Below, one piece after another: positions 2,371-15,359 of a DNA stretch of 64,000 bases (positions are counted from its first letter, which is position 1; every line of letters starts with the position of its first letter). The DNA lies in assembly GCA_938036875.1 (NCBI GenBank), contig CALHVX010000044.1, positions 124,001 to 188,000 of the forward strand, read 5' to 3'. The notes under the pieces are model-generated. The model saw nothing but the letters and a program-made list of their open reading frames with translations. It had not been told where the DNA came from and ran no database searches. The position numbers and the translations under genes were made by a program. The stretch comes from an uncultured Pseudomonadales bacterium (GTDB lineage Bacteria; Pseudomonadota; Gammaproteobacteria; Pseudomonadales; Azotimanducaceae).

Positions 2371-3954
2371 CTAGTGGTCATGGCCGCCGGTTGAACCGCC
2401 GCCGTCTGGATTCATCATGCTGGGCTTCGCTTGAATCTGAAGCGCACTGTCGATTTTGAAGTTGCCAGAGACGACAACTAAGTCCCCTTCCGACAAACCG
2501 CTCTCAACGATGTAATCTGCCCCCGCTCTAGGACCAAGCACCACGACTCGCCCCGTGTAGGTGGGCCGATCGGCATCCGGTTCTTCCACATACACAACAG
2601 CTCGCTCACCCGTTAAGAGCGCGGCCGTTGCTGGTATCACAATCGGTGCTTCAACGTCCGCCGATGATTCTTCTGCAAAGCCTAAGGATTCGGTCCTCAC
2701 CAGGTCCATGCCGCACACCGGACAGGTGCCGGGCTCATCACTAATGATTTCGGGGTGCATGGGTGATACCCACTTACCCGCTAAGTCTTGATCAACCACC
2801 TTGCCGCCGGTGGCTAAGCGAGCTGAAACATTCGCTCTCACAAACATCTCTGGTTTTAGCCGCTCGTCACTGTTGTCCACGTTGACTCGAACCTTCACGG
2901 TTCGCGTCTTCGGATTCAGGACCGGGTCAATGAACGCAATACGACCATGAAAGGTTTCGCCTGGAAAAGCCTGAGTTGAGAAATCCACCTGTTGGCCGTA
3001 ACGAAGCCACTGCAGATCAGACTCGTATGCATCGAGTTGCACCCAAACAGAACTTAAATCGGCAATTGTGAAAATCCGGCTACCAGTTTCTACGTACATC
3101 CCTTGTTGTGCGTTCTTATGAATCACAACACCACTAGAGGGGGAGTAAATCGTGACGTGCTCTTCTGGTTTACCCGTTTTTTCGATTTGCTTAATCTGGC
3201 CGGCCGTTAATCCCCAAAGACGTAGCTTGTCTCTTGCCGAATCCACCGTGCCTTTGGCAGAGTCGCGCAGAGAGCTGAGCCCACTCTTTGACATTTCTTT
3301 CATGCCGCGAATCGCCTGAAGCAGCTCTTCTTGTGCTGAGTAGAGTTCCGGACTGTAGAGCTTCACCATGTGGTCGCCCTTCTTCACCGATAAACCGGTG
3401 TAGTCAACAAACAGCCCATCGATTCGTCCAGGTATCCAGGCCGTGATGTAGGCCAAATTGGTTTCGTCATAAGCGACTTTGCCAACCAATCGAAGGGAGG
3501 CTGTTGGGAAACGCCGTTCAACAGGCACGGTTTCGATTCGCATCAGCGCTTTCTGAGAAGGACTGACACTAATCTGCCGGGCCTCTTCCATACCGCTCAT
3601 GCCACTGGATTCCTGCTTGGGCACTTTGATGAGATCCATGCCGCAAATGGGGCACTTCCCTGGACCATCTCTTTGGATGTGCGGATGCATGGAACAACTC
3701 CAAACATCTGCCTTGGGTGTTAACGGATTCGACTGAACAATGGGCGACATTTTGGGCTCGCCTACCATCTGACTCATATCGTGGCCCGCTTGCTCATCTA
3801 CCGGCACACTTGCCATCGGCTCGTTCATCGGCATGTTGTGCTCACCGCTGCCGCCTGAGAACAACGACATCACAATCAAGGTTCCAACGATTGCGGCTGC
3901 AGCAATTACCCAGCGGGAGCGCGCGAGTGGCAGAATTTTTTTACTGATGTTCAT
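2371..3954 (-). CDS. cusB: CusB-type periplasmic adaptor with two heavy-metal-binding domains
   Basis: Membrane fusion protein linking the CusA pump to the CusC channel; 527 residues. An N-terminal membrane segment (about residues 12-30) is followed by a Met/His-rich linker (HNMPMNEPM, HDMSQM), typical of copper-handling proteins. Two HMBD-type domains are visible, each with an MHP motif followed by a CPxCGMDL motif: one near residues 85-110 before the barrel-sandwich core, one near 395-420 inserted in the C-terminal half. The C-terminus is His-rich (GGHDH). I chose the ATG at 3954 because AGGAG lies 7 bases upstream; the frame also opens earlier at 3978 without a good ribosome site. The start overlaps the end of cusC, suggesting translational coupling. 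Two HMBD copies are more than the usual zero or one. Confidence 0.93.
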   Translation of the reverse strand: MNISKKILPLARSRWVIAAAAIVGTLIVMSLFSGGSGEHNMPMNEPMASVPVDEQAGHDMSQMVGEPKMSPIVQSNPLTPKADVWSCSMHPHIQRDGPGKCPICGMDLIKVPKQESSGMSGMEEARQISVSPSQKALMRIETVPVERRFPTASLRLVGKVAYDETNLAYITAWIPGRIDGLFVDYTGLSVKKGDHMVKLYSPELYSAQEELLQAIRGMKEMSKSGLSSLRDSAKGTVDSARDKLRLWGLTAGQIKQIEKTGKPEEHVTIYSPSSGVVIHKNAQQGMYVETGSRIFTIADLSSVWVQLDAYESDLQWLRYGQQVDFSTQAFPGETFHGRIAFIDPVLNPKTRTVKVRVNVDNSDERLKPEMFVRANVSARLATGGKVVDQDLAGKWVSPMHPEIISDEPGTCPVCGMDLVRTESLGFAEESSADVEAPIVIPATAALLTGERAVVYVEEPDADRPTYTGRVVVLGPRAGADYIVESGLSEGDLVVVSGNFKIDSALQIQAKPSMMNPDGGGSTGGHDH

Positions 3955-5374
3955 ATGTGCTCTCCTGTTGTTCGCCATTCGTTATTAGCGGTTGGCCTGT
4001 TAATTTTTCGAGCACAGTGCGTGCCTGATTGTGATCCGTAATGGAGCGGGCATACGACAGCTCGAAGTTGAGCAACATGCGCTGTGAATCGATCAAGTCC
4101 GCAAAGGGTGCCGCCCCGGTGCTATAGGAGCGCTGAGTGGCCGCCAGAGACTCGTTTGCTTTGGGTAATAAGGTGTTTTTGTAAAGGTCGATTTGCCGCT
4201 CCGCGTCTCGAAGCTTGAAGAGTGCTGTCACTGTATCGGCATGAAAAGCGTTTAGCTGTTGGTCACGCTTGTATTGCTGCTGCCTTATCGCGGCATCAGC
4301 TTCTTTAACCCCAGCATCATATTTAGAGCGCCAGATTGGCAGCGTAATGCCAACCATCCCAGACAGTGCATTGTCACCACTGCCGTTAACACCCGCATTT
4401 CTCGCCTCACCCGTGGCGATGTAATCAACGCCAACGGTGAAATCAGGCAGGTAGTTTTTCTTAGCTCGTTCTCTAAGTGATCTCGCCGCCGCTATATCAA
4501 AGCCCGTGGCTCGAAGCGCTGGATTATTGAGGGCTACTTTCTCGAGCAGCTCGTCATCACTAAAGCCTACTGCTTCAGAATCGAGAGTCTTTGGCAGCGC
4601 CAAAGACTCTGTCGTTGGGCGATTGAGTGCGCTGTTTAACCGAGCAAAGAGCGGGGCTCTTCGGTCTTTCAGGCTCGCTAATCGATTTTCGATGTTGCCA
4701 AGCTCAACCTGTGCACGAATCACATCCGAATGCGTCGCCCCCCCAGTGCCGTAGCGAGCTCTTGCAACACGTTCCAGATGAAGCACCAGGTCTCGATTGC
4801 CCTGGACGATCTCTATCGACTGGCCTAGGTAGTAAAGCTCATACCAGGCACTAGCCACTTCAGCGATGACAGTGTTTCGAACCGAGGCGACTCGCTCAGC
4901 AGCGGCTCGAGCGGAATCAGTGGCAGCAACCCCTTGAAGACGTAACTTTCCGAACCATGGCAGCGTTTGGGAAATGCCAATCGCGTGCTCTTGCGGACCA
5001 ACACGTGTTTCTACTTCTTCAAAGAAGTAGCGGTAGGTTAACTTCGGATCCGGCAGCGAGGTGACTTGAGGCACACGCTCCAGAGCACCGAGATGTTGCT
5101 GACGGGCGGCTTGTATCTCAGGGTTATGCTCCAGCGCATAGTCAACGAGTGAACGGAGATTCTGAGCGTCTAGCGCATCCCTTGATTGCCTTCTTATCCA
5201 GGTGGTATCAATTCGTTCTTCAGTGACACCAGCTAAACGCTTTGCATTTTGCTGACCCTCGGCTGATCCAGTATCTGAAGCAGGCGCTCTGAAAAGCGAG
5301 TTGGCACAGCCACTGAGTAAAAGGACCGATATAAATGCCAGAAGCGTCTGGCTACGCTTTGTATTAATGATCAT
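3941..5374 (-). CDS. cusC: CusC-type outer membrane efflux channel (lipoprotein)
   Basis: TolC-family outer membrane factor that completes the tripartite CusCBA exporter; 477 residues from the ATG at 5374. It has a lipoprotein signal peptide with the lipobox LSGC, so the mature protein is probably acylated. The body has the two repeated halves of OEP domains, with NPEIQAARQQHLGALERVPQ near the first helix and NPALRATGFDIAAARS in the second. The frame also opens at a TTG at 5407, but the ATG gives the compact lipoprotein signal. The start overlaps the last codons of the cytochrome c gene, and the end overlaps the start of cusB, so the genes are tightly packed in one operon. Substrate follows from the neighbouring CusA. 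Confidence 0.9.
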   Translation of the reverse strand: MIINTKRSQTLLAFISVLLLSGCANSLFRAPASDTGSAEGQQNAKRLAGVTEERIDTTWIRRQSRDALDAQNLRSLVDYALEHNPEIQAARQQHLGALERVPQVTSLPDPKLTYRYFFEEVETRVGPQEHAIGISQTLPWFGKLRLQGVAATDSARAAAERVASVRNTVIAEVASAWYELYYLGQSIEIVQGNRDLVLHLERVARARYGTGGATHSDVIRAQVELGNIENRLASLKDRRAPLFARLNSALNRPTTESLALPKTLDSEAVGFSDDELLEKVALNNPALRATGFDIAAARSLRERAKKNYLPDFTVGVDYIATGEARNAGVNGSGDNALSGMVGITLPIWRSKYDAGVKEADAAIRQQQYKRDQQLNAFHADTVTALFKLRDAERQIDLYKNTLLPKANESLAATQRSYSTGAAPFADLIDSQRMLLNFELSYARSITDHNQARTVLEKLTGQPLITNGEQQESTYEHQ

Positions 5375-5984
5375 GAGATGAATGATCGTGTGCTGGTTTT
5401 TCTTCAACCGTCTCTTCGAGATGCTCGAGCGGTTCTTCTTGGTGACCGCTCACTTCTTGCGGCGCGTGATGGCCAGCACCTGAGGCACTTGCCAGACTCG
5501 CCCCATAGCTGGCCTTATCCAAATTGGGAAGCTCAGTCATGAAGGCAACGACAGGCCACAAGTCAGCATCACCGTGGGTTGCGCCCCAGGCCGGCATGCC
5601 GGTCATCTTGATGCCGTTTTTGGTTATCCAGTAAAGCTCTGCAGGTGTTAGGTGTGCTCCTGACTTCGCCAGGTCAGGCGCTCTTGGATTCAGCCCGAGG
5701 CCCATCGCGTCAGTCTTTTTGCCTGGTCGGTCGTGGCAACTTGCGCACATCGACTCAAAATCGTTGATGCCAGCTTGTTGCATTGCCGGTGTGAGCTCGG
5801 GCACAACAACCTCCCCTGCCCTTCTCTCAACCGAGGCGTGCATTGTGGTTTTCATTAACCACGTTGATGATTCATTGTGTGGGACCAGCGCACTAACGTT
5901 GTAAACGCCCGAATAAACAACCGAGAGTCCAATAGCCAGAGCAACAGCCCCACTAACAAGCAGGGTTCCAAATATCGTTTTCAT
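5364..5984 (-). CDS. Membrane-anchored c-type cytochrome in the cus operon
   Basis: Single-haem class I cytochrome c, 206 residues. A membrane helix at residues about 4-25 anchors or exports it. The haem site CASCH is present, and the downstream MTGMPAWG segment probably supplies the axial methionine. The last 45 residues are acidic and His-rich (HHAPQEV, ending HDHSSHDH) and could bind metal. The ATG at 5984 is preceded by AGGAAA; the longer open frame to 6011 has no such site. It is co-oriented with and overlaps cusC. Cytochromes of this sort recur in cus/cop loci, where a role in periplasmic Cu(I)/Cu(II) redox or electron transfer is possible; that is inference, not shown here. Confidence 0.85.
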   Translation of the reverse strand: MKTIFGTLLVSGAVALAIGLSVVYSGVYNVSALVPHNESSTWLMKTTMHASVERRAGEVVVPELTPAMQQAGINDFESMCASCHDRPGKKTDAMGLGLNPRAPDLAKSGAHLTPAELYWITKNGIKMTGMPAWGATHGDADLWPVVAFMTELPNLDKASYGASLASASGAGHHAPQEVSGHQEEPLEHLEETVEEKPAHDHSSHDH

Positions 5985-6089
5985 ACCGCCATTTCCTAGT
6001 TCGAATGACACAATCCAATAACTAGAAAGCGAACTGACTTCGCTCTCACAATTTTTAGACGCTAAGACGCGTCTGAATTGGATCTGTCT

Positions 6090-6482
6090 CTATTCGAGCT
6101 GGAGGTCGTGCCGGCGGACAGGCGATTCGGCCATAAACGCAATATCTGCGTATGGCGGGCCAGTGGATGTTAAAGCGGGAAGTTGGGTAGCCTGACTAAT
6201 TGCTACCAAATCGAGTTGAGTATCGTCCTCATCCAGATCGACTTTGGTCAGATGTGGAGATGGCGTAACCAGCCCACCCTGTTCACAACTAATCGCCAGT
6301 GCTGAATTACAGTCCGAGCATTGTTTGTGAGGGCAATCAGAGTCGGCCGGTGCTTCGTGGTGTTGATGTTGCTGCCCTTGAGCCTCTGAGCTTGCAGACG
6401 CTGACGCACACGGACACACCAAATTGACGAACACAAAGGCCGTCGCAAGTAAGATGTGTAGGACTTTTCTTTGCAGCATCAT
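6090..6482 (-). CDS. Small secreted Cys/His-rich protein, first gene of cus operon
   Basis: A 130-residue protein of unknown family. An N-terminal hydrophobic segment ends near VCPCASASA, so it is secreted or a lipoprotein. After it comes a His/Cys cluster (HQHHE, then CPHKQCSDC), suitable for binding soft metals. The C-terminal half is polar without a recognisable domain. It starts 13 bases from the CsoR-type operator, making it the first gene of the cus operon; two adjacent ATG codons (6482, 6479) can serve as start. Small His/Cys-rich periplasmic proteins are frequent in metal-efflux operons and are usually taken as metal carriers, but I cannot name this one. Confidence 0.7.
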   Translation of the reverse strand: MMLQRKVLHILLATAFVFVNLVCPCASASASSEAQGQQHQHHEAPADSDCPHKQCSDCNSALAISCEQGGLVTPSPHLTKVDLDEDDTQLDLVAISQATQLPALTSTGPPYADIAFMAESPVRRHDLQLE

Positions 6483-6494
6483 ACAGATACCCTA

Positions 6495-6509
6495 TACCCC
6501 CTAAGGGTA
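6495..6509. promoter_or_regulatory. CsoR-type operator between cus operon and csoR
   Basis: The sequence TACCC-CCTAA-GGGTA is a perfect 5-bp inverted repeat with a 5-base centre. It has the C-tract/G-tract layout of CsoR/RcnR-family operators and sits between the divergent cus operon and csoR gene. Binding is inferred from layout and neighbour. Confidence 0.6.
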
Positions 6510-6544
6510 CTGGTCAACGCACAATTTCGAGGTTTATCTAAGTC

Positions 6545-6829
6545 ATGGCAGAACAACCAAAAAAGCGGGAAGCAATCGTCAGACGTCTTAACAAGATTGA
6601 GGGACAGGTTCGCGGCATCAATCGAATGCTAGAAGAGAACCGCTACTGCATCGACATTCTTCATCAGGTCCAAGCCACCAAGGCCGCTCTAACCAAAGTA
6701 GAAACCGTACTCCTGAGGGACCACGCCAGTGCTTGCGTTGACGAGGCCCTGCAGAAAGGCACTCTTGAGGAGCAGCGAGAAAAGATCGTTGAGCTCGTTG
6801 GACTGTTTGAAGGCGTCAGGGCGAAGTGA
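6545..6829 (+). CDS. csoR: CsoR/RcnR-family copper-sensing repressor
   Basis: All-helical DUF156-family DNA-binding repressor, 94 residues, the usual family length. The copper triad is complete: Cys35 in RYCIDIL, His60 and Cys64 in RDHASAC, the x-C-H-C pattern of Cu(I)-responsive CsoR rather than the RcnR (Ni/Co) or FrmR pattern. Family knowledge: apo-protein binds G/C-tract operators and leaves DNA on binding Cu(I). It is divergent from the cus operon with a palindromic operator 36 bases upstream of its ATG, so it probably represses both itself and the operon. Function is well supported by the ligands. Confidence 0.9.
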   Translation: MAEQPKKREAIVRRLNKIEGQVRGINRMLEENRYCIDILHQVQATKAALTKVETVLLRDHASACVDEALQKGTLEEQREKIVELVGLFEGVRAK

Positions 6830-6834
6830 ATTCC

Positions 6835-7137
6835 TTACACTTGGCCGTAGGATACCAAGCGAAACTCCTTCGGCCTGAACTCACAAAGTAACGAGGGAAA
6901 CAGCACTGAGCTTTGGGCATCCTCAAAGCGCAACCGGCCCCGAAAAAACCTCACCTCCCCTTTCATCGCATACTCGTGAAACCACTTGGTATCTGTTCTC
7001 GCGGGAGCCAGCCCAACAACCTTGGCACCACTTTGAGCAGCAGAGTAAGCCTTGTGAAGCCATAGCCCAGTTTGCTATGAGCCATAGGGAGGGTTGCACC
7101 AATAAAAGCGAAGCCGACAAAACGCACTATGGCCGAG
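6835..7137 (-). pseudogene. Remnant of phage-type DNA N6-adenine methyltransferase
   Basis: On the minus strand one frame reads FYWCNPPYGS, then a TAG stop (7075-7077), then about 80 residues: AYSAAQSGAKVVGLAPARTD, then KWFHEYAM, RFFRGRLRF, PSLLCEFRP, ending at TAA (6835). The NPPY motif is the catalytic motif of adenine-N6 methyltransferases, and the segment after it resembles phage Dam-type proteins (PARTDTKWFHE, GRLxF, PSxLxxFRP). The N-terminal half is missing and the frame is broken, so this is a dead fragment. It lies between csoR and the mercury module and suggests a phage or plasmid segment was once here. Confidence 0.6.
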
Positions 7138-7239
7138 TCAGTGCTGCCTAGGAAAACACGGAAGGCATTGGCATCCGGGTAAAGGCTCCGCTGCTCTGTT
7201 GGTTAACTGTACTAGCTCAGATCGGCCGAGACCTGACTT

Positions 7240-7947
7240 TCACTCGTGTTGACCAATCTCCTGCAACACCTTGAGCAAGGGCTCAGCCTTCAACGGCCCC
7301 GTGTGACGGTAGACGATATCGCCCGAACCACTCAGAGCGACAACGGTTGGTAATCCAACAACGCTGAACTGTTTGCCAATCTCAGGATATTCATCGGTAT
7401 CCACTTTGATGAACACATAACCCTGGTCGAGCGCCTCAATAACAGCTGCGTCAGCAAAGGTGGTCTTGTCCATTGTCCGGCACGCGCCGCACCACTTGGC
7501 GTGAAAATCGACAAACACGCGCTTACCCGCCGACTGAGCTTGATCGAGCGCCGTCTGTATTAATGGCGGGAGTTCTCCCGAGAGTTCCCTCGTTGTGGTT
7601 GGTGCAATCCGGCTTTGAGCAAGCGACTCCTTAAAGCCTGTTTCACTGATGGCCTCAAGCATCTGATCCGTCCCGACTTTATCGGGATCATAAGACACAG
7701 TGAATTCATCAACAGAAAGATCAACGGTGACGTTGGTGATACCTGGCAACTCTAACAGAGCGGCTTCGACCGAATTCGGTCAGCTCATTCACGTCGCGCC
7801 GCTTTTACTCTTCATCATGCCGTCAACGGCAATGGTGACTTTCAGCAACGCATGTTCCGCTCGCTCGGCCTGCGCAAACGGTGCCAACATCAGCACGGCG
7901 AGGGTTGCAACGCCATGGATAACCACTTTTCTAATCAACACGACCAT
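7240..7947 (-). CDS. Candidate double-selenocysteine MerP-like/thioredoxin fusion (UxxU)
   Basis: Read through two in-frame TGA codons, this is one 235-residue secreted protein. Residues 1-27 are a signal peptide ending AQA. Residues about 35-105 are a MerP/HMA fold: KVTIAVDGM, eight extra residues, then U53-M-S-U56-PNSVEAALLELPGI, which aligns with the CAACPITVKKAL segment of MerP, with both metal-binding Cys replaced by TGA (7789-7791 and 7780-7782). Residues about 125-235 are a thioredoxin domain with WCGAC and the cis-Pro loop GLPTVV. The frame is intact on both sides. Its promoter matches the MerR type. I infer a periplasmic Hg(II)-binding and reducing protein with two selenocysteines. 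ATG 7947 (or GTG 7941) gives the signal peptide; no strong ribosome site is seen. Alternative: a pseudogene with two nonsense mutations, leaving only a thioredoxin domain. Confidence 0.72.
7750..7760 (-). promoter_or_regulatory. Candidate SECIS hairpin after the TGA codons
   Basis: On the minus strand CTCT-GTT-AGAG can form a 4-bp stem with a GTT loop, beginning 19 bases after the second TGA. Bacterial SECIS elements lie about 15-40 bases after the UGA, with a G and U in a small apical loop, so place and loop fit. The stem is short; only a folding calculation could support it. Confidence 0.3.
7768..7781. promoter_or_regulatory. 14-bp perfect palindrome overlapping the second TGA
   Basis: GACCGAATTCGGTC is a perfect palindrome. 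In the mRNA it can fold as GACCG-AATT-CGGUC directly at the second TGA codon. It could be part of a SECIS structure for the first TGA or chance; it may also compete with the downstream hairpin. Confidence 0.3.
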
Positions 7948-7971
7948 CCGGTTTGGATATAAGTAAATTGG

Positions 7972-8002
7972 AGCATAGAGCCTGTATCTGCTACAGGTGC
8001 AA
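7972..8002 (-). promoter_or_regulatory. MerR-type promoter of the MerP-thioredoxin gene
   Basis: On the minus strand: -35 TTGCAC (7997-8002), a 19-bp spacer, -10 TATGCT (7972-7977). The spacer holds the dyad CCTGTAG-CAG-ATACAGG. The 19-bp spacer with a central dyad is the hallmark of MerR-activated promoters. It begins just after the merR stop codon. Confidence 0.75.
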
Positions 8003-8003
8003 C

Positions 8004-8414
8004 CTATATTTCCAGTAAGGCTTCAATAATTGGGCACTCAGGCACATTTTCGCCAGAACATTGCTTGGCGAGGTCCCGCAGCGTGCCCTGCATCCGTTGC
8101 AGGTCTTTGATCTTCTGCCGGATGCTCAAGACGTGGTCCTGCGCAATCTGCTGGACGTGCTCACACGAAACTTGCTCACGGTCCACAAGCGACAGCAGCT
8201 CGCGGATCTCTTCGAGTGTGAAGCCCATCTCTCGGCAGCGCCGTATAAAGCACAGGCGTTGAAGATGCACCTCTTCATAAATCCGGTGTCCGCCCGAATT
8301 CCGGTCCGGTTCGGGCATCAGCTCGATCTTCTCGTAATACCGGATAGTTTCGGCATTAACGCCGCTGCGTTTGGCTAAAACGCCTCGCGTCACATCTTTT
8401 CGGTCTGCTTTCAT
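8004..8414 (-). CDS. merR: MerR-family metal-responsive activator, probably mercury
   Basis: Dimeric MerR-family regulator, 136 residues. Residues about 9-75 are the winged helix (VLAKRSGVNAETIRYYEKIE, GGHRIY); a long dimer helix follows. Three cysteines sit at the MerR metal-site positions: Cys84 (VSCEH), Cys119 and Cys127 (CSGENVPECPII). The CPII ending resembles mercury MerR (CPLI) more than CadR/PbrR, though the last two Cys are 8 rather than 9 apart, so the metal is likely but not proven to be Hg(II). It is divergent from the merT remnant with a MerR promoter between them, and a second MerR promoter lies just downstream for the MerP-thioredoxin gene. Confidence 0.87.
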   Translation of the reverse strand: MKADRKDVTRGVLAKRSGVNAETIRYYEKIELMPEPDRNSGGHRIYEEVHLQRLCFIRRCREMGFTLEEIRELLSLVDREQVSCEHVQQIAQDHVLSIRQKIKDLQRMQGTLRDLAKQCSGENVPECPIIEALLEI

Positions 8415-8421
8415 TTTTTCC

Positions 8422-8452
8422 TTGCACCTGTAGTGACTACAGGGTCTAAGGT
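8422..8452 (+). promoter_or_regulatory. MerR-type merT promoter/operator
   Basis: -35 TTGCAC (8422-8427), a 19-bp spacer, -10 TAAGGT (8447-8452). The spacer contains the perfect dyad CCTGTAG-TGA-CTACAGG (8427-8443). The -10 is the same as in the classic Tn501 merT promoter. It lies between merR and the merT remnant. Confidence 0.82.
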
Positions 8453-8500
8453 GGACTGAATAGCCAATTTAGGCAAGCCAAAAACTACAGGAGCATGAGG

Positions 8501-8671
8501 ATGAATGAAGACTTCCCCATCGCTGAACCAACAGAACAAGGTGATCAACGGGACCGCAGCGGTATCGCCACCACAGGCGGCGTGATCGGAGCGATCCTGG
8601 CCTCTTCCTGCTGCATTGTGCCGCTTGTCCTTGTAATGAATCGACGCGCAGATCGAGTCCAATACTGCTGA
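8501..8671 (+). pseudogene. merT: Truncated merT (mercuric ion transporter, N-terminal piece)
   Basis: A 56-codon frame whose residues about 25-45 match the start of MerT: GGVIGAILASSCCIVPLVLV, including the vicinal Cys pair of the first membrane helix that takes Hg(II) from MerP. MerT is normally about 116 residues with three helices; here similarity stops after PLVLV and the frame ends at TGA 8669. The break near 8635 looks like a deletion or rearrangement, since nothing MerT-like follows. GGAG and GAGG lie just before the ATG. The promoter is intact, so the locus keeps MerR control but has lost this transporter. Confidence 0.75.
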
Positions 8672-9122
8672 AACGCCCTATACCCTGATCCAATTTAACG
8701 CCAAAACCATGGAGTGAACGTAGCGAATATCGTAAGCCTGTCTTCACCCTTAGGCTGAGGTGGTACGGATAAGAATTACCGTAAGGCGAATATACCGATC
8801 CGCGAAGCCAAGCAATGTTTGAATAAACGAGAGCCTGTTCGATTCGGGTGTAACCGGCCAATGGCGCCAAGTGGGTGACCACGCAGTTGGGTAACGCGGT
8901 TCTTATAGGAGATTTACCGTACAGCCGTAGACATGTTAGCGGCGTGTCTGCTTACGCGTGCGTCAGTTTTCTATCCCTGCCCCGAAGTCAAACACCCTTC
9001 TTTAAGATAGGCTGAGTTTGAATAGTTCGCTAACCCTCGGGATTCCCGTATGCCCCAAGCACCGTGGTTGTGTAACCATTCCAACGTCTCTCTACTACGG
9101 CGGGTTAGCCACCAACTAGAAT
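8672..9122. other. 450 bp without a recognisable gene
   Basis: This stretch follows the merT break. Open frames here (for example on the minus strand 8469-8882) carry no recognisable domain, and no promoter or RNA structure stood out. It is probably filler left by rearrangement. Confidence 0.5.
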
Positions 9123-9227
9123 ATGGAAATCGAGTATTGGATATTTGGATTAATGACTCTACAGCTTGCAATATTTGCAGCAGCAATCCTGTTGACGACA
9201 CGGTCAACCGAAAAGAACAAGGATTGA
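9123..9227 (+). CDS. Possible 34-residue membrane protein
   Basis: ATG-initiated frame of 34 codons. It has a short acidic/aromatic start (MEIEYW), a hydrophobic stretch of about 20 residues (IFGLMTLQLAIFAAAILL) and a charged tail (TRSTEKNKD), the layout of a single-helix membrane microprotein. There is no clear ribosome site. It lies 135 bases upstream of a membrane-anchored hypothetical gene in the same direction. Function is unknown and it could be chance. Confidence 0.35.
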   Translation: MEIEYWIFGLMTLQLAIFAAAILLTTRSTEKNKD

Positions 9228-9362
9228 ATTAGCGACTCGTTATTTTTTCCTTGGGATATATTATGAAACGTAGCAATGAACAATCCGGTTGATCAAACGC
9301 AACAAAGAACTCGGTGCATGCCTCGACAACGTTTCCACAATCAAAGACTCTGAGACGACGCG

Positions 9363-10133
9363 ATGTCGGAACAATCCATCACCAAACCGTTGCTGGTCAC
9401 GATTGTTTCGGCTCTAATCTTAGCGCCCGTTACTAGCCATCTTGCCGTACTGGGGTTTCAAGTCTGGCGAGATTCAAAACAGAAACGAAACCAGTCTGAA
9501 CAGATATTTACTATCTTGCAGACGGAAATCGAGCAGAACCTCTATGTACTGAATCGAGAAATAGCGATGCGATATGCAAAGCTCAAAGCGGTTAGCCGTC
9601 TCTTTGAGTTACGCGTTGCGCCCGGTGATACGCCGTCGGAGGAATGGGATAGGCTTCTCTATGCAACCATGGAAGATGGCGCAGCGTACTTCTCGACAGC
9701 GATCGTTGACAGCTACATATTGGGCAATCGTTCCTTTCTAGTGGATAACCCAGCGTTATCGAAAGCGCTGGTGAGCTATGACACAAATATTCACCAAGCC
9801 GCGCATGTCGATACTTGGGATCGAAATCTGAAAACTAGCACGCTAGTGCCCTATTTTATAAAAAATGGTTCGCTCGCCCAAATATTGGCAACGGATCCCG
9901 GTCGCCCGGATGGCACGCGCCTGCATACGTTCGAGATAGAACACGACTTCCACTTGGACAGCTCAATGGAGCATTCGACTTTGGTCGACAACAGCGAATT
10001 TGTGGGGATTCTGGCAGAACTGTCGGAAATCCAGAGAGTGGTACTGGGCCAGTTCGAAGACTTGAGACAGGAGTTAACACAACTGCAGGCGACGTTGAAA
10101 ACAGAAATGCAAATCCAATCTAATGCACATTGA
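9363..10133 (+). CDS. Membrane-anchored hypothetical protein
   Basis: 256 residues, no family recognised. One membrane helix near the N-terminus (about residues 9-34, LLVTIVSALILAPVTSHLAV) is followed by a basic stop-transfer region (RDSKQKRNQ) and a long soluble domain, rich in helix. The C-terminus (QFEDLRQELTQLQATLKTEM) is a likely coiled coil. ATG start with no strong ribosome site. It stands alone between the mercury module and the CDF exporter, transcribed against its neighbours, and has no metal-binding motif that I can see. Confidence 0.65.
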   Translation: MSEQSITKPLLVTIVSALILAPVTSHLAVLGFQVWRDSKQKRNQSEQIFTILQTEIEQNLYVLNREIAMRYAKLKAVSRLFELRVAPGDTPSEEWDRLLYATMEDGAAYFSTAIVDSYILGNRSFLVDNPALSKALVSYDTNIHQAAHVDTWDRNLKTSTLVPYFIKNGSLAQILATDPGRPDGTRLHTFEIEHDFHLDSSMEHSTLVDNSEFVGILAELSEIQRVVLGQFEDLRQELTQLQATLKTEMQIQSNAH

Positions 10134-10224
10134 TGAGTGTAACCCCAGCGCACACGTGAAGCGTTGCAAGAACGCCGATGCCAGTTCACCTAGTGTCGCA
10201 CTCGCGAATCCGGGATCAACGCGA

Positions 10225-11172
10225 TTACACCATCTTTAGGGCATCATGACAGTCACCGTTGATACGTTCGAACTCTATCGTGCTGTGCTCGATACGAAAG
10301 GTTTCAGAGAGCAGTGCACGCACTTGCTGCTTGATGTGCTCGCTCTGTGACCAGAAGTCATCCGCGATGATCACATGCGCCTCAAACGATCGCTTGTGTT
10401 CGTCAATTTCCCAAATATGCACATGATGCACATCGTCAACGCCCGCGAGTTCAACGAGGGCGGTGCGAATCGCTTCTCGATCGACATCTGGCGGGCTGCC
10501 TAACATTAACATTCGAACAACGACCTTTCCTTCTCGAAAAGATTGCCACAAAATGTAACCAGCGATCATCAAGGTGATGATCGGGTCGATCAATGCCCAG
10601 CCAAATACAATAATCACACTGCCGGCTATGATCACAGCGATGGAACCCAGCGCATCAGCAACGTTGTGCAAGAACGCAGCGCGGATATTGATGCTCGTTT
10701 TCGATAGCCGATACGTCAGGAGTGCGGTTACCCAGTCGACAGCAAGCGCAACCACAGCAATAATAACGATTAGCCATCCATCCACACTCTGCGGCTCGAT
10801 AAACCGCCAGAACGCTTCATAGACGAGATACAGTCCGATCACAATGAGCGTCGTATAGTTGACCAACGCCGCCACTATCTCAGCGCGCCCATAGCCGAAC
10901 GTCATTTCCGCATCGCCTGGACGCCGGGCAATCTTTCGAGCAAAGAAAGCGATGCCCAGAGAGATAGCGTCACTGAGGTTGTGAATGGCATCGGCAATCA
11001 GCGCTAGGCTTCCTGCGAACACCCCGCCGATAATTTGCGCCACGGTCAAAGCTAAGTTAACCACGACAGCCCACACAACGCGTTTGTCATCGATGTCTTG
11101 TTGATGATGGTGGTGATGGCTGTTCATGGCGTTTGCTCGTTGGACGCTATCGATTGAGTTTACGAGGTTCAT
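10225..11172 (-). CDS. czcD: CDF-family Zn/Co/Cd exporter (CzcD-like)
   Basis: Cation diffusion facilitator, 315 residues, the normal length. The cytoplasmic N-terminus carries a His run (SHHHHHQQD). Six membrane helices follow; the metal sites are visible as HNLSDAISL (helix 2, HxxxD) and HNVADALGS (helix 5, HxxxD). The C-terminal cytoplasmic domain contains the DVHHVHIWEID segment that forms the dimer metal site. CDF proteins export divalent metals in exchange for protons. The ATG at 11172 has GAGG 7 bases upstream, favouring it over ATG 11127. Zn/Cd/Co is inferred from the HD-HD signature and context. Confidence 0.92.
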   Translation of the reverse strand: MNLVNSIDSVQRANAMNSHHHHHQQDIDDKRVVWAVVVNLALTVAQIIGGVFAGSLALIADAIHNLSDAISLGIAFFARKIARRPGDAEMTFGYGRAEIVAALVNYTTLIVIGLYLVYEAFWRFIEPQSVDGWLIVIIAVVALAVDWVTALLTYRLSKTSINIRAAFLHNVADALGSIAVIIAGSVIIVFGWALIDPIITLMIAGYILWQSFREGKVVVRMLMLGSPPDVDREAIRTALVELAGVDDVHHVHIWEIDEHKRSFEAHVIIADDFWSQSEHIKQQVRALLSETFRIEHSTIEFERINGDCHDALKMV

Positions 11173-11181
11173 TATGCCTCA

Positions 11182-11603
11182 CTATCGCGGATGAACGAGC
11201 TCGCAAAGTGAATATCGAGCCGTCGGGGTCAATTGATACCACTTGGGATTGGCCCCGACGAACCATTGCTCTTCAATCGGCATTTCAATTCCAATTTCTC
11301 CGACAATGCCCACCCTGTTGTCTAACTCAACCTTGGCGATAGGATTCCCAGGTGCGCTATGAAAACATTCAACGAGACCAATCCTCGCGACCAACACACA
11401 GTCAGTATTGCCTGGTCTCGTACTTGGTGCTCGCTGAAGACGTATTCCAACTGTTTCTCGACCGCTTCTTTCAGCAAAGACGCACGTTGGTCGTACAACG
11501 CTAATAACTCGTTGTCCTCACTCTCGTTAAATGTCATCCGACAACTCCTATAGCCAAAGACGGCACATCCGATCAGATAGATGGCACGGTCATGGGCGCT
11601 CAT
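11182..11603 (-). pseudogene. Frameshifted hypothetical gene
   Basis: Two overlapping minus-strand frames look like one gene: 11322-11603 (SRMTFNESEDNELLALYDQR, LLKEAVEKQLEYVFSEHQVR) and 11182-11397 (ECFHSAPGNPIAKVELDNRV, GEIGIEMPIEEQWF). The first reads sensibly to about 11395 and the second continues, so a single-base indel there would fuse them into about 140 residues. No family recognised. It sits between the CDF exporter and a DUF411 gene and overlaps the latter's end by 14 bases. It may be a sequencing error rather than real decay. Confidence 0.45.
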
Positions 11604-12165
11604 GGGTTAGTTCCCGCTCGTTTCCGTTCGCGTGCTGGTGATCAGGTGCGCTGGAAATAGGCTCTCCACTGGTATCGTAGGATACGACTTCCCAGGCTAC
11701 GCCTTCGCTGGTGTCCACGTTCGCTCGCAGGTGAGCGATTCCAGAGACTTCTTCAGGTGCCTCAGCCGTTAATGCGGCGATGGACGCAGCAGGCAGATGC
11801 CCCTCTAACCAGTAGCCGTTCGCGACAGCGGTATGACAGGCAGAAAATTCTCGCGGTACACCGAGTGATGCTTGCTTACGTACGATATCGTGAGTTTGCA
11901 GCGCGCTCACCGCGAGGCCATCACGGCGTAGTTGTTGAATCCATGGCTGGTAACACTTACACGAAGAAGCAACATAGACCACAACGTCTGCATCCGCGGG
12001 GGTAGTAACTGGCTCGTCTCGGACGATTATCCAACCGATCAGCAGAATCCCAATAATGACAAGCGATAGGATAGGACGTCCGGGCTTAGGAGATTTGCGT
12101 CGCATCGCCGCCAGCACGCCTCCACTTGGCTTGGTTGTCGTTGGTCGTTTACGTTTTCGACGCAT
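11590..12165 (-). CDS. DUF411 metal-binding protein, membrane anchored
   Basis: 191 residues. A basic N-terminus (KRKRPTTTKP) precedes one membrane helix (about residues 33-50), placing the DUF411 domain in the periplasm. The domain has VVYVASSCKCYQPW, LGVPREFSACHTAV and YWLEGHLPAASI. These match DUF411, whose members occur in copper-resistance loci. The usual CGCC motif is here CKCY, so one of the paired Cys is lost, while the later Cys-His (ACH) and Glu-Gly-His are kept. ATG at 12165 chosen; a GTG lies just before it. Metal binding is likely, specificity open. Confidence 0.82.
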   Translation of the reverse strand: MRRKRKRPTTTKPSGGVLAAMRRKSPKPGRPILSLVIIGILLIGWIIVRDEPVTTPADADVVVYVASSCKCYQPWIQQLRRDGLAVSALQTHDIVRKQASLGVPREFSACHTAVANGYWLEGHLPAASIAALTAEAPEEVSGIAHLRANVDTSEGVAWEVVSYDTSGEPISSAPDHQHANGNERELTHERP

Positions 12166-12168
12166 CAC

Positions 12169-12558
12169 AGCCGATCATCTAATTCCGGTGACGTGCGTCA
12201 CTGGCGGGCGTCTAAACGACCATGCGACAATTCGCAGCATGGGTTTGTGCATAAACATTGTTCTTTACCCCCAAGAAGCTTTGATATTCATATCGACCTC
12301 ACCTGCACACAACAACCCCTCTCGGTTAGCAGTATCCCTTTGGCGAGAAAGTCGAAGTCCGGTGACCGCACACCGACCAACGCCTCCGCCCACTCAGTCA
12401 ACACCTGCCTTACACCCTCAAACACACGCAGAGTCTTGGGAGAGCGGGACACCACTGGTGTCGCGTGCACAACGGCTGCCTCCGGAATATCCGCTGCTGC
12501 TACCTGTTACCGTTCTGTTTGAATTGACGGCCATTGGGTTAACTCCTGCCTTCATCGA
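12169..12558. other. 390 bp without a secure gene
   Basis: Between the P1B-4 ATPase and DUF411 genes. A minus-strand frame at 12288-12470 (60 codons, GTG start, SRSPKTLRVFEGVRQVLTEW, later CC) and a short one starting at 12528 behind GCAGGAG are possible small genes or remnants; neither is recognisable. No clear terminator or operator was seen. Confidence 0.4.
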
Positions 12559-15042
12559 TTATCTCGCCTGGGACGAGTGCTCGTGTGTCTCGTGATCGGC
12601 TTGCGAGAGATCAACGCCCCCCGGGATTGCTGCCGACTGATAGGCCAGCAGGCGCAACGCGTTAAAGACCACCAGTACCGTAGAACCCTCGTGCATCAGC
12701 ACCGCAGCCCCGATGCTCAAGCCAAAAAGCGTTGAGGGCACAAGAATGCCGACCATGCCGAGGCTAAACCATAGGTTTTGCCGGATGATGCGACTGCTCG
12801 CTCGACTTAAGCCCACCGCAAAGGGTAAGTGGCGCAGATCATCTGACATTAAGGCGACATCGGCAGTTTCAAGGGCTACATCCGAACCCGCAGCGCCCAT
12901 CGCTATGCCTACGGTGGCATTGGCCATCGCGGGCGCATCGTTGACCCCGTCACCCACCATGGCCACCGCTGCTTCTTGACGAAGTTGTTTGATCGTTGCC
13001 ACTTTGTCATCGGGCATCAGATCGCCACGCGCTTCGTCCAAGCCAACCTCGCGAGCCACGGCGTCAGCCACTTGCTGATTGTCCCCGGATATCATGAGCA
13101 TCCGGCGGATACCCACCGTTCGAAGTTGCGCGATCACACCAGCGGCTGCAGGACGCGGTGTATCCATGAGTCCGATGACACCGAGATAGCGGTCTCCATG
13201 GCGTACGATCATCGTCGTTCGCCCGTTGGATTCCAATTCGTCAATGCGTTTACGTAAGTCATCGGGCAAAGCCGGACCGTCAATTTCTTCGAATAGATCG
13301 TCTTTACCAATGTAGGTATCCAAGCCCTCAACCAGCGCTTGCACACCTCGGCCAGTCAAGCTTCGTAGATCGGAGGCTTGCGGTATCGGTGAGGTGGGCA
13401 TTAACTCCTCGCGAGCTCGCACCACGGCGGCCGCCAATGGATGATCGCTCAAGGACTCGACGGCAATGGCGATGCGCAACAGCTCGAACTCGTCTGCACC
13501 AGCGTAAGGGACAACGTCGACAAGCCGGGGCTTGCCTTCGGTTAGGGTTCCAGTCTTATCGAATGCAATGGCGCGCAGCCGACCTAAATTCTCAAGCGGA
13601 CCCCCACCCTTAATCAGCACGCCACCTCGCGCCGCGCGCGCAATACCACTGAGCACCGCGCTAGGGGTGGCGATGGCAAGCGCGCACGGGCTCGCCGCCA
13701 CCAAGAACGCGAACATACGATAGAAGCTCGCGCTCATTTCAGCATCGAGGACGAAGCCAACCAAGAGCACCAGCACGGCACCAATCAGCACCGCAGGCGT
13801 AAAGATGCGCTGAAAGCGATCCGTAAACTGTTGGGTCGGCGATTGATTCGTTTCCGCCTCACGGACCATAGTGACCACGCGTGCCAGCGTCGACTCGCTA
13901 CTCAATCGTGTGACGTAGATTTCCAACGCCCCATTGCCGTTAACCGATCCCGCGAACACGCGACTGGAGGCATCCGTTGCCTCTGAGTTGATTGCGGCTT
14001 CATCGACATCACCGACAGGATGTTTATCAACTGGTACGCTTTCACCGGTAATAGGCGCTTGATTGATGCTGCTTTCACCCTTGATCACAAAACCGTCGGC
14101 TGACAAACGCTCATTGGGTCGCACTAAAACAATGTCCCCGATCGACAGCGCATCAACCGCTACCTCACTGACCTCGCCGTCCCGAATGACATTTGCTGTG
14201 GCAGGCGTCAGATCCGCTAAAGCCTCGATCGCACGTTTAGCGCGTCCCATGGCATAAGCCTCCAGCGCATGCCCGAGACTGAACAGAAACAGCAACAACG
14301 CACCTTCGGCCCATTCGCCTAGGATCGCGGCACCGATCGCCGCCGCCAACATCAATGTGTCAATTTCAAACTGGCCGGCGCGCAAATGTTCGATCGCCTC
14401 ACGAAACGTGAACCAGCCACCGAAAAAGTAGGCGGCAACGAGCAACGACTGCCCAACCCAGCTCGGTGCATCCGAAAAGGACTGCATCAACCAGCCGATT
14501 AACAGGGCAATGCCACACAAGCCCACAAACACCAGTTCGGTTTTTTCGCCAAACACGACGCCATGTGCGTGGCCTGCTTTCTCGGGCTGCGTCACCACAC
14601 CGACAAGTTCATCGAGGATTGAGCGAAGCGCCGACTCGTCGGTCTGATCTCGATCAAACTCGATACGGACAGCACCCGCCGGCGACACGGCTGACTCCAA
14701 GACTCCGTGGGCTTCGGATAACTGGTTGTTGATCCGTTGCGCGCGACCGGCAGGCATCGAGGCGATATCACTCACTAGATGGCCGTATTTTGCTTGTAGT
14801 TCGGTACCCGCTAGAAGCGCAAAACGGCGGAGTTCTTGTATCGTATATAGAGTCGGATCCAGATGAACGCACAACCGAGGCGGACCGCCGGCGGGTCGTT
14901 CGACCAGGTGCGTGGCGTCTACGCCGGTTTTTGCCTCGATCTGTTTGCGAAGCCGTTGAACGCAGGTATCACCCTCTTCTGCCACGTCCGGTAATAGGAG
15001 GTTAAGTTCGAGCGTTACTTTTTCGATCATCTCTGCATCCAT
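12559..15042 (-). CDS. P1B-4-type heavy-metal ATPase (Co/Zn/Cd class)
   Basis: Metal-exporting P-type ATPase, about 827 residues. Counted from the longer open frame (843 residues, GTG at 15090): TGES at about 349, the metal-site motif SPCALA at about 467, phosphorylation site DKTGTLT at about 511, SDHP at about 548, GDGVNDAPA later, and HEGST in the last membrane helices. SPC plus HEGS/GT is the P1B-4 signature (Co(II), also Zn/Cd/Fe in some members), not the CPC signature of ZntA or CopA. The N-terminal 180 residues hold two degenerate HMA-like folds without CxxC and a short His stretch (HAHG). The start is uncertain (15090, 15042, 15030); none has a good ribosome site. Its start overlaps the end of the DUF4124 gene. 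Confidence 0.9.
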   Translation of the reverse strand: MDAEMIEKVTLELNLLLPDVAEEGDTCVQRLRKQIEAKTGVDATHLVERPAGGPPRLCVHLDPTLYTIQELRRFALLAGTELQAKYGHLVSDIASMPAGRAQRINNQLSEAHGVLESAVSPAGAVRIEFDRDQTDESALRSILDELVGVVTQPEKAGHAHGVVFGEKTELVFVGLCGIALLIGWLMQSFSDAPSWVGQSLLVAAYFFGGWFTFREAIEHLRAGQFEIDTLMLAAAIGAAILGEWAEGALLLFLFSLGHALEAYAMGRAKRAIEALADLTPATANVIRDGEVSEVAVDALSIGDIVLVRPNERLSADGFVIKGESSINQAPITGESVPVDKHPVGDVDEAAINSEATDASSRVFAGSVNGNGALEIYVTRLSSESTLARVVTMVREAETNQSPTQQFTDRFQRIFTPAVLIGAVLVLLVGFVLDAEMSASFYRMFAFLVAASPCALAIATPSAVLSGIARAARGGVLIKGGGPLENLGRLRAIAFDKTGTLTEGKPRLVDVVPYAGADEFELLRIAIAVESLSDHPLAAAVVRAREELMPTSPIPQASDLRSLTGRGVQALVEGLDTYIGKDDLFEEIDGPALPDDLRKRIDELESNGRTTMIVRHGDRYLGVIGLMDTPRPAAAGVIAQLRTVGIRRMLMISGDNQQVADAVAREVGLDEARGDLMPDDKVATIKQLRQEAAVAMVGDGVNDAPAMANATVGIAMGAAGSDVALETADVALMSDDLRHLPFAVGLSRASSRIIRQNLWFSLGMVGILVPSTLFGLSIGAAVLMHEGSTVLVVFNALRLLAYQSAAIPGGVDLSQADHETHEHSSQAR

Positions 15043-15359
15043 TGTCGGTTTTGGTGGCGCCTCATCACTGGCGGCTTTCGTTGTTTGCACAGTGTTCGGC
15101 GAGCTGCTGACGTCCGTTGCTTGCGCTCGTCAATGCGTTGGTCGATCTTCTCGTCTACCGCTGCGAGGTGACGTTGTAAATCGTGGTCCGTTGGCGGCGC
15201 GTGTTTGATCGCAATCGTCTCGAACGACTTCGTCGCCGGAGCAGCAGCTGAGTAGTGCACATCACCATCCACCGGATCTAGCCAGCGATACACAAACAGG
15301 TGTTCGGCAAGGACGGTGATCGGTATCGCTAGTAGTAAAGTGAAACTAATAATCTTCAT
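15027..15359 (-). CDS. DUF4124-type small periplasmic protein
   Basis: 110 residues from the ATG at 15359, which opens directly into a signal peptide (KIISFTLLLAIPITVLA). After it, YRWLDPVDGDVHYSAAAP is the DUF4124 core (Y-W-D-x-G-x-x-x-Y/F-S). The tail is very basic (RKQRTSAARRTLCKQRKPP) with likely helix. DUF4124 function is unknown. The gene lies between the PII-like gene and the ATPase and overlaps the ATPase start by 16 bases. Confidence 0.65.
   Translation of the reverse strand: MKIISFTLLLAIPITVLAEHLFVYRWLDPVDGDVHYSAAAPATKSFETIAIKHAPPTDHDLQRHLAAVDEKIDQRIDERKQRTSAARRTLCKQRKPPVMRRHQNRQWMQR

Follow-up and report, generated by a model that had tools for sequence, protein, structure and literature searches.

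In the well-studied mercury-resistance (mer) systems, a dimer of the regulator MerR holds a misaligned promoter and, once bound by Hg(II), untwists the promoter DNA. Promoters of this kind can be recognized by a 19- or 20-bp spacer, a palindrome within that spacer, and, in the classical proteobacterial form known from Tn501 and Tn21, the operator TCCGTAC-N4-GTACGGA (PMC1526738). A further described system is the mer cluster of plasmid pMR68 from Pseudomonas sp. K-62, which confers Hg(II) resistance in E. coli when cloned and for which the authors report a TTGCAC box and the dyad GCACCTGTAGCCGCTACAGGTTG (PMC3737084). The locus considered here lies in a 64,000-nt window, which is the whole stretch of DNA that was analyzed, and reading it as a mer cluster split between two MerR promoters appears to be largely right, the special feature being that the second promoter would serve a gene for a double-selenocysteine MerP-thioredoxin protein.

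The two putative promoters, P1 and P2, lie on either side of a gene for a MerR-family regulator of 136 aa (merR, 8004-8414, minus strand). P1 (8422-8452, plus strand; -35 TTGCAC at 8422-8427 and -10 TAAGGT at 8447-8452) is located just upstream of the merR start codon and faces a merT remnant, and P2 (7972-8002, minus strand; -35 TTGCAC at 8002-7997 and -10 TATGCT at 7977-7972) begins 1 nt past the merR stop codon and faces the MerP-thioredoxin gene. The spacers, CTGTAGTGACTACAGGGTC at P1 and CTGTAGCAGATACAGGCTC at P2, are both 19 bp long and both hold a palindrome: CCTGTAG-TGA-CTACAGG at P1, with 7-bp arms and a 3-bp center, and CCTGTA-GCAGA-TACAGG (7981-7997) at P2, with 6-bp arms and a 5-bp center. 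The earlier note had described twin promoters with TTGCAC, 19-bp spacing, and a CCTGTAG/CTACAGG-type dyad, and both sites are as it gave them, although the dyad label is slightly generous for the shorter arms of P2. The weak -35 box and over-long spacer of both sites fit dependence on an activator. A promoter scan requiring 4/6 of TTGACA misses both, and the TTG-19-TA frame recovers both. The wider surroundings (3941-15090) form a metal-resistance neighborhood with an outer-membrane efflux protein, a c-type cytochrome, a cation-efflux protein, a P-type ATPase, and a metal-sensitive repressor (6545-6829); a similar cytochrome gene is found near the MerP-thioredoxin gene of a related locus, L018.

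The merR product has the three metal-site cysteines expected of a mercury MerR, the first within VSCEH and the others as a CX7C pair. Its score against the mercury MerR model TIGR02051 (134.4 bits) is the best among the metal models and falls under the curated cut-off of 150.85, with the copper, zinc, and cadmium/lead models of the MerR family only 11-15 bits away; judged on profile score alone, the metal of the regulator would therefore be ambiguous. Among solved structures, the regulator is nearest to the mercury MerR of Bacillus, and PbrR and CadR are also close sequence matches. Together with the P-type ATPase and cation-efflux genes nearby, the narrow score range and these latter matches would suit a double switch that is real but has a soft metal other than mercury as its inducer (Cd, Pb, or Zn, or more than one of them), with a mer remnant lying next to a sensor of the CadR/PbrR type. 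We regard this as unlikely, given the top structure match and, above all, the gene context. Six plasmid-borne merR homologues (~50-58% identity) were inspected, and all six are divergent from mer genes with merT, a merP/HMA protein gene, and merA, which they would regulate through the same operator, CTGTA-N5-TACAG in a 19-bp spacer beside merR. The same operator type stands before merT-merA in one related locus (L108) and on the MerC side of another (L017), and at the present locus the context is the merT remnant. By context, the divergence of the six homologues from mer genes with a shared operator points to mercury as the metal, so that Hg(II) is, by homology, the likely inducer of P1 and P2, and MerR would be expected on the same grounds to bind both sites.

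The earlier note had simply called the sites MerR promoters. This stands in the sense that P1 and P2, on the evidence of the six plasmid homologues, have the kind of operator used by one subfamily of mercury MerR proteins, but that operator does not have the classical sequence TCCGTAC-N4-GTACGGA. The regulators with the CTGTA-N5-TACAG operator share CX7C, whereas a GTAC-type MerR encoded in L018 has CX8C, which suggests that the former make up a mercury MerR subfamily apart from that of Tn501, with a CTGTAG operator of its own. L018 has, directly after a UxxU MerP-thioredoxin gene, a second, classical-looking merR with a CCGTAC...GTACGG operator in a 20-bp spacer, followed by genes for HMA and membrane proteins (the whole at L018:1986-3781).

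The arrangement of P1, merR, and P2 recurs in three further loci (L017, L020, and L108), distributed over two more genera of the family. L017 and L020 are two loci of one genome (G643; same family, other genus) and share an order in which P1 precedes the gene for a GDCCVxC protein and merR is followed, 3-4 bases past its stop codon, by P2 and a UxxU MerP-thioredoxin gene; in L017, a MerC above its curated cut-off comes after the GDCCVxC protein on the P1 side. In L108 (G758; again the same family, but a third genus), P1 precedes merT-merA, with MerA above its curated cut-off, and P2, one base past the merR stop codon, precedes a Cys-type merP. Across the twin-layout loci, P2 thus starts 1-4 bp past the stop codon. 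Because the layout is kept in related bacteria, we take it, on this comparison, to be a genuine regulatory design and not the product of chance. The -35 boxes are often identical within a locus and differ among loci (TTGCAC/TTGCAC or TTGAAT/TTGAAT; seen in L017, L020, and the window), and such matching pairs may reflect either recognition of part of the -35 box by MerR or joint evolution of both sites.

Alternatively, P2 could be no more than a relic to which MerR binds, or could serve autoregulation from its place at the end of merR, with the selenoprotein gene read through from merR. The gene does lie downstream of merR on the same strand, and P2 abuts the merR stop codon and leaves no gap for another terminator. 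However, P2 retains both a -35 and a -10 box, 19 bp apart, in four loci, and the same promoter type stands directly before the selenoprotein gene in three loci with no adjacent merR (L014, L016, and L018; dyad eroded in the first two), so that we give this explanation little credence. In L015, the same promoter type heads a stretch of merT, a gene for a UxxC protein, and the MerP-thioredoxin gene; L019 has a weaker promoter match, and some MerP-thioredoxin relatives have no merR alongside. From its recurrence before the MerP-thioredoxin gene in relatives, P2 is, by comparison of these loci, a conserved promoter of that gene.

The site itself is rare. CTGTA-N5-TACAG occurs at P1 and P2 and nowhere else in the 4.74-Mb assembly, and a general scan of the window for TTG-19-TANNNT with a perfect 6-bp dyad returned exactly two sites, P1 and P2, against a mean of 0.07 in 60 dinucleotide-preserving shuffles of the window, none of which reached two. 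The only exact copies of TTGCACCTGTAG in the window are those in P1 and P2; their 31-bp cores agree at 24/31 bases and their 30-bp flanks at only 11/30 and 6/30, so that the resemblance does not extend beyond the site and a simple duplication of P1 into P2 is rejected. That P2 resembles P1 by chance or was recently copied from it locally, as the exact sharing of TTGCACCTGTAG might suggest, is thus scarcely credible in view of the unlike flanks, the uniqueness of the dyad to this locus, the shuffles, and the retention of the layout in other genera.

The gene that P2 faces (7240-7947, minus strand) encodes a MerP-like HMA domain fused to a thioredoxin domain, in which UMSU replaces the CxxC of the HMA domain and the thioredoxin domain carries CGAC. 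The two in-frame UGA codons (UGA-N6-UGA; 7780-7791, minus strand) correspond to Sec53 and Sec56 at the positions of the metal-binding cysteines, and a SECIS-like hairpin (7749-7761, minus strand) with a 5-bp stem and a GUU loop follows, the loop starting 23 nt past the second UGA. In one scan of a species-level genome collection, UxxU was retained in the window and eight relatives, and a nearby GMMKSK(S/G)G motif was likewise retained in the eight further loci. Across these nine loci, pairing of the hairpin holds in 45/45 cells, with compensatory changes at 3/5 pairs, which none of the shuffles matched, and genes for tRNA-Sec and SelB are adjacent on contig C15 of the same genome. The suggestion in the earlier note of a selenoprotein candidate is credible on this evidence, and retained UxxU, tRNA-Sec, SelB, and a covarying hairpin together make a solid sequence-based case that the gene encodes a selenoprotein. 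Among plasmid-borne sequences, its relatives are weak or partial matches at most. A Planctomycetota locus (L021:1384-1434) also has an HMA-thioredoxin fusion of the UxxU type and a hairpin like the one here, which extends the fusion beyond the Gammaproteobacteria. Separately, four mer-like clusters have a gene downstream of merT whose frame ends in LVFIVGP(T/S)-TGA (L015:5382-5957, L112:2817-3455, L114:2597-3193, and L115:3195-3794). In at least L015 the frame continues past this TGA (GPTUGVC), which suggests that the post-merT gene encodes a further selenoprotein, of UxxC type; the L015 protein, read with Cys, matches no NCBIfam model.

On the P1 side, the earlier note was correct that merT is damaged: in the remnant (8495-8671, plus strand), a stretch of ~25 residues (codons near 8564-8638) corresponds to the N terminus of MerT, and the remainder of the gene is gone. 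The sequence in place of the 3' part of merT (8639-9115) looks intron-like by eye, but from ~8639 onward no Rfam family matches it, even permissively, and it has no second copy elsewhere in the genome. A search for MerT elsewhere in the genome gave no match, and the controls were equally silent. Neither this genome nor G643 yielded a MerA above cut-off; all MerA-like matches in this genome are below the cut-off, and the best of them (L048) is without a C-terminal Cys pair.

We consider it highly probable that the locus is a split, mercury-responsive mer cluster in which one MerR acts through two operators. At each of them, a MerR dimer would occupy the CTGTA-N5-TACAG dyad within the over-long 19-bp spacer and keep RNA polymerase inactive while Hg(II) is absent; Hg(II) at the three-cysteine site would then cause MerR to untwist the spacer and bring the -35 and -10 boxes into alignment. 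P1 would formerly have driven merT, now truncated, and P2, right after the merR stop codon, would drive the HMA-thioredoxin fusion, giving a single regulator with two separate transcripts. The fusion product is probably exported, its UxxU metal site comprising two selenocysteines, and as far as its biochemical role can be predicted, the selenol pair would capture Hg(II) in the periplasm and might be maintained in the reduced state by the thioredoxin domain. With P1 and P2 separate, the selenoprotein could be unaffected by the loss of merT. The earlier proposal that the gene is induced on its own and independently of merT therefore stands as far as merT is concerned, the gene having its own promoter, but one and the same MerR would be needed at both promoters, and some transcripts may also read through from merR into the gene.

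Selenium has a higher affinity for mercury than sulfur has, and the locus offers a testable case of a selenoprotein under a mercury switch. Since the searches of this genome and G643 gave no MerA above cut-off, the selenoprotein may act as a mercury trap and not as a feeder for a mercuric reductase. A fuller version, in which a mercury-induced double-Sec MerP-thioredoxin with its own MerR promoter, and with neither mercuric reductase nor intact MerT, serves as a stand-alone periplasmic selenol trap regulated apart from the classical mer genes, is put forward tentatively, as a possibility somewhat short of probable. A literature search found nothing direct on a mercury-induced or mercury-linked bacterial MerP selenoprotein, or on a second MerR promoter before merP. 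The P1-merR-P2 arrangement would represent a conserved way of splitting merP from the other mer genes, and the CTGTAG operator would be tied to a mercury MerR subfamily distinct from that of Tn501.

Compared with the MerR-PmerT system of Tn501/Tn21, the locus has in common the 19-bp spacer, the dyad between the -35 and -10 boxes, the -10 TAAGGT at P1, and the divergent arrangement of merR and merT, here at P1; it differs in the operator, CTGTA-N5-TACAG in place of TCCGTAC-N4-GTACGGA (PMC1526738), and in having a second promoter past merR. With the pMR68 cluster, the locus shares a homologous MerR (50% identity), the CCTGTAG-N3-CTACAGG dyad, and the 19-bp spacer; pMR68 differs in that its merR is divergent from mer genes with a Cys-type MerP and MerA/MerB, it has no selenoprotein, and a P2-type promoter was not found directly past its merR. 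The twin locus L108 shares the P1-merR-P2 layout, the operator type, and a P2 one base past the merR stop codon that faces a MerP gene, but its MerP has CxxC and no thioredoxin domain, and its P1 would drive an intact merT-merA. Finally, the selenoprotein resembles the NF041115 family of UxxU metal-binding proteins (listed in PMC13188914) in having an HMA domain with a double-Sec metal site, whereas here that domain is fused to a thioredoxin domain and scores 51.5 bits over residues 49-109, under the curated cut-off of 95.
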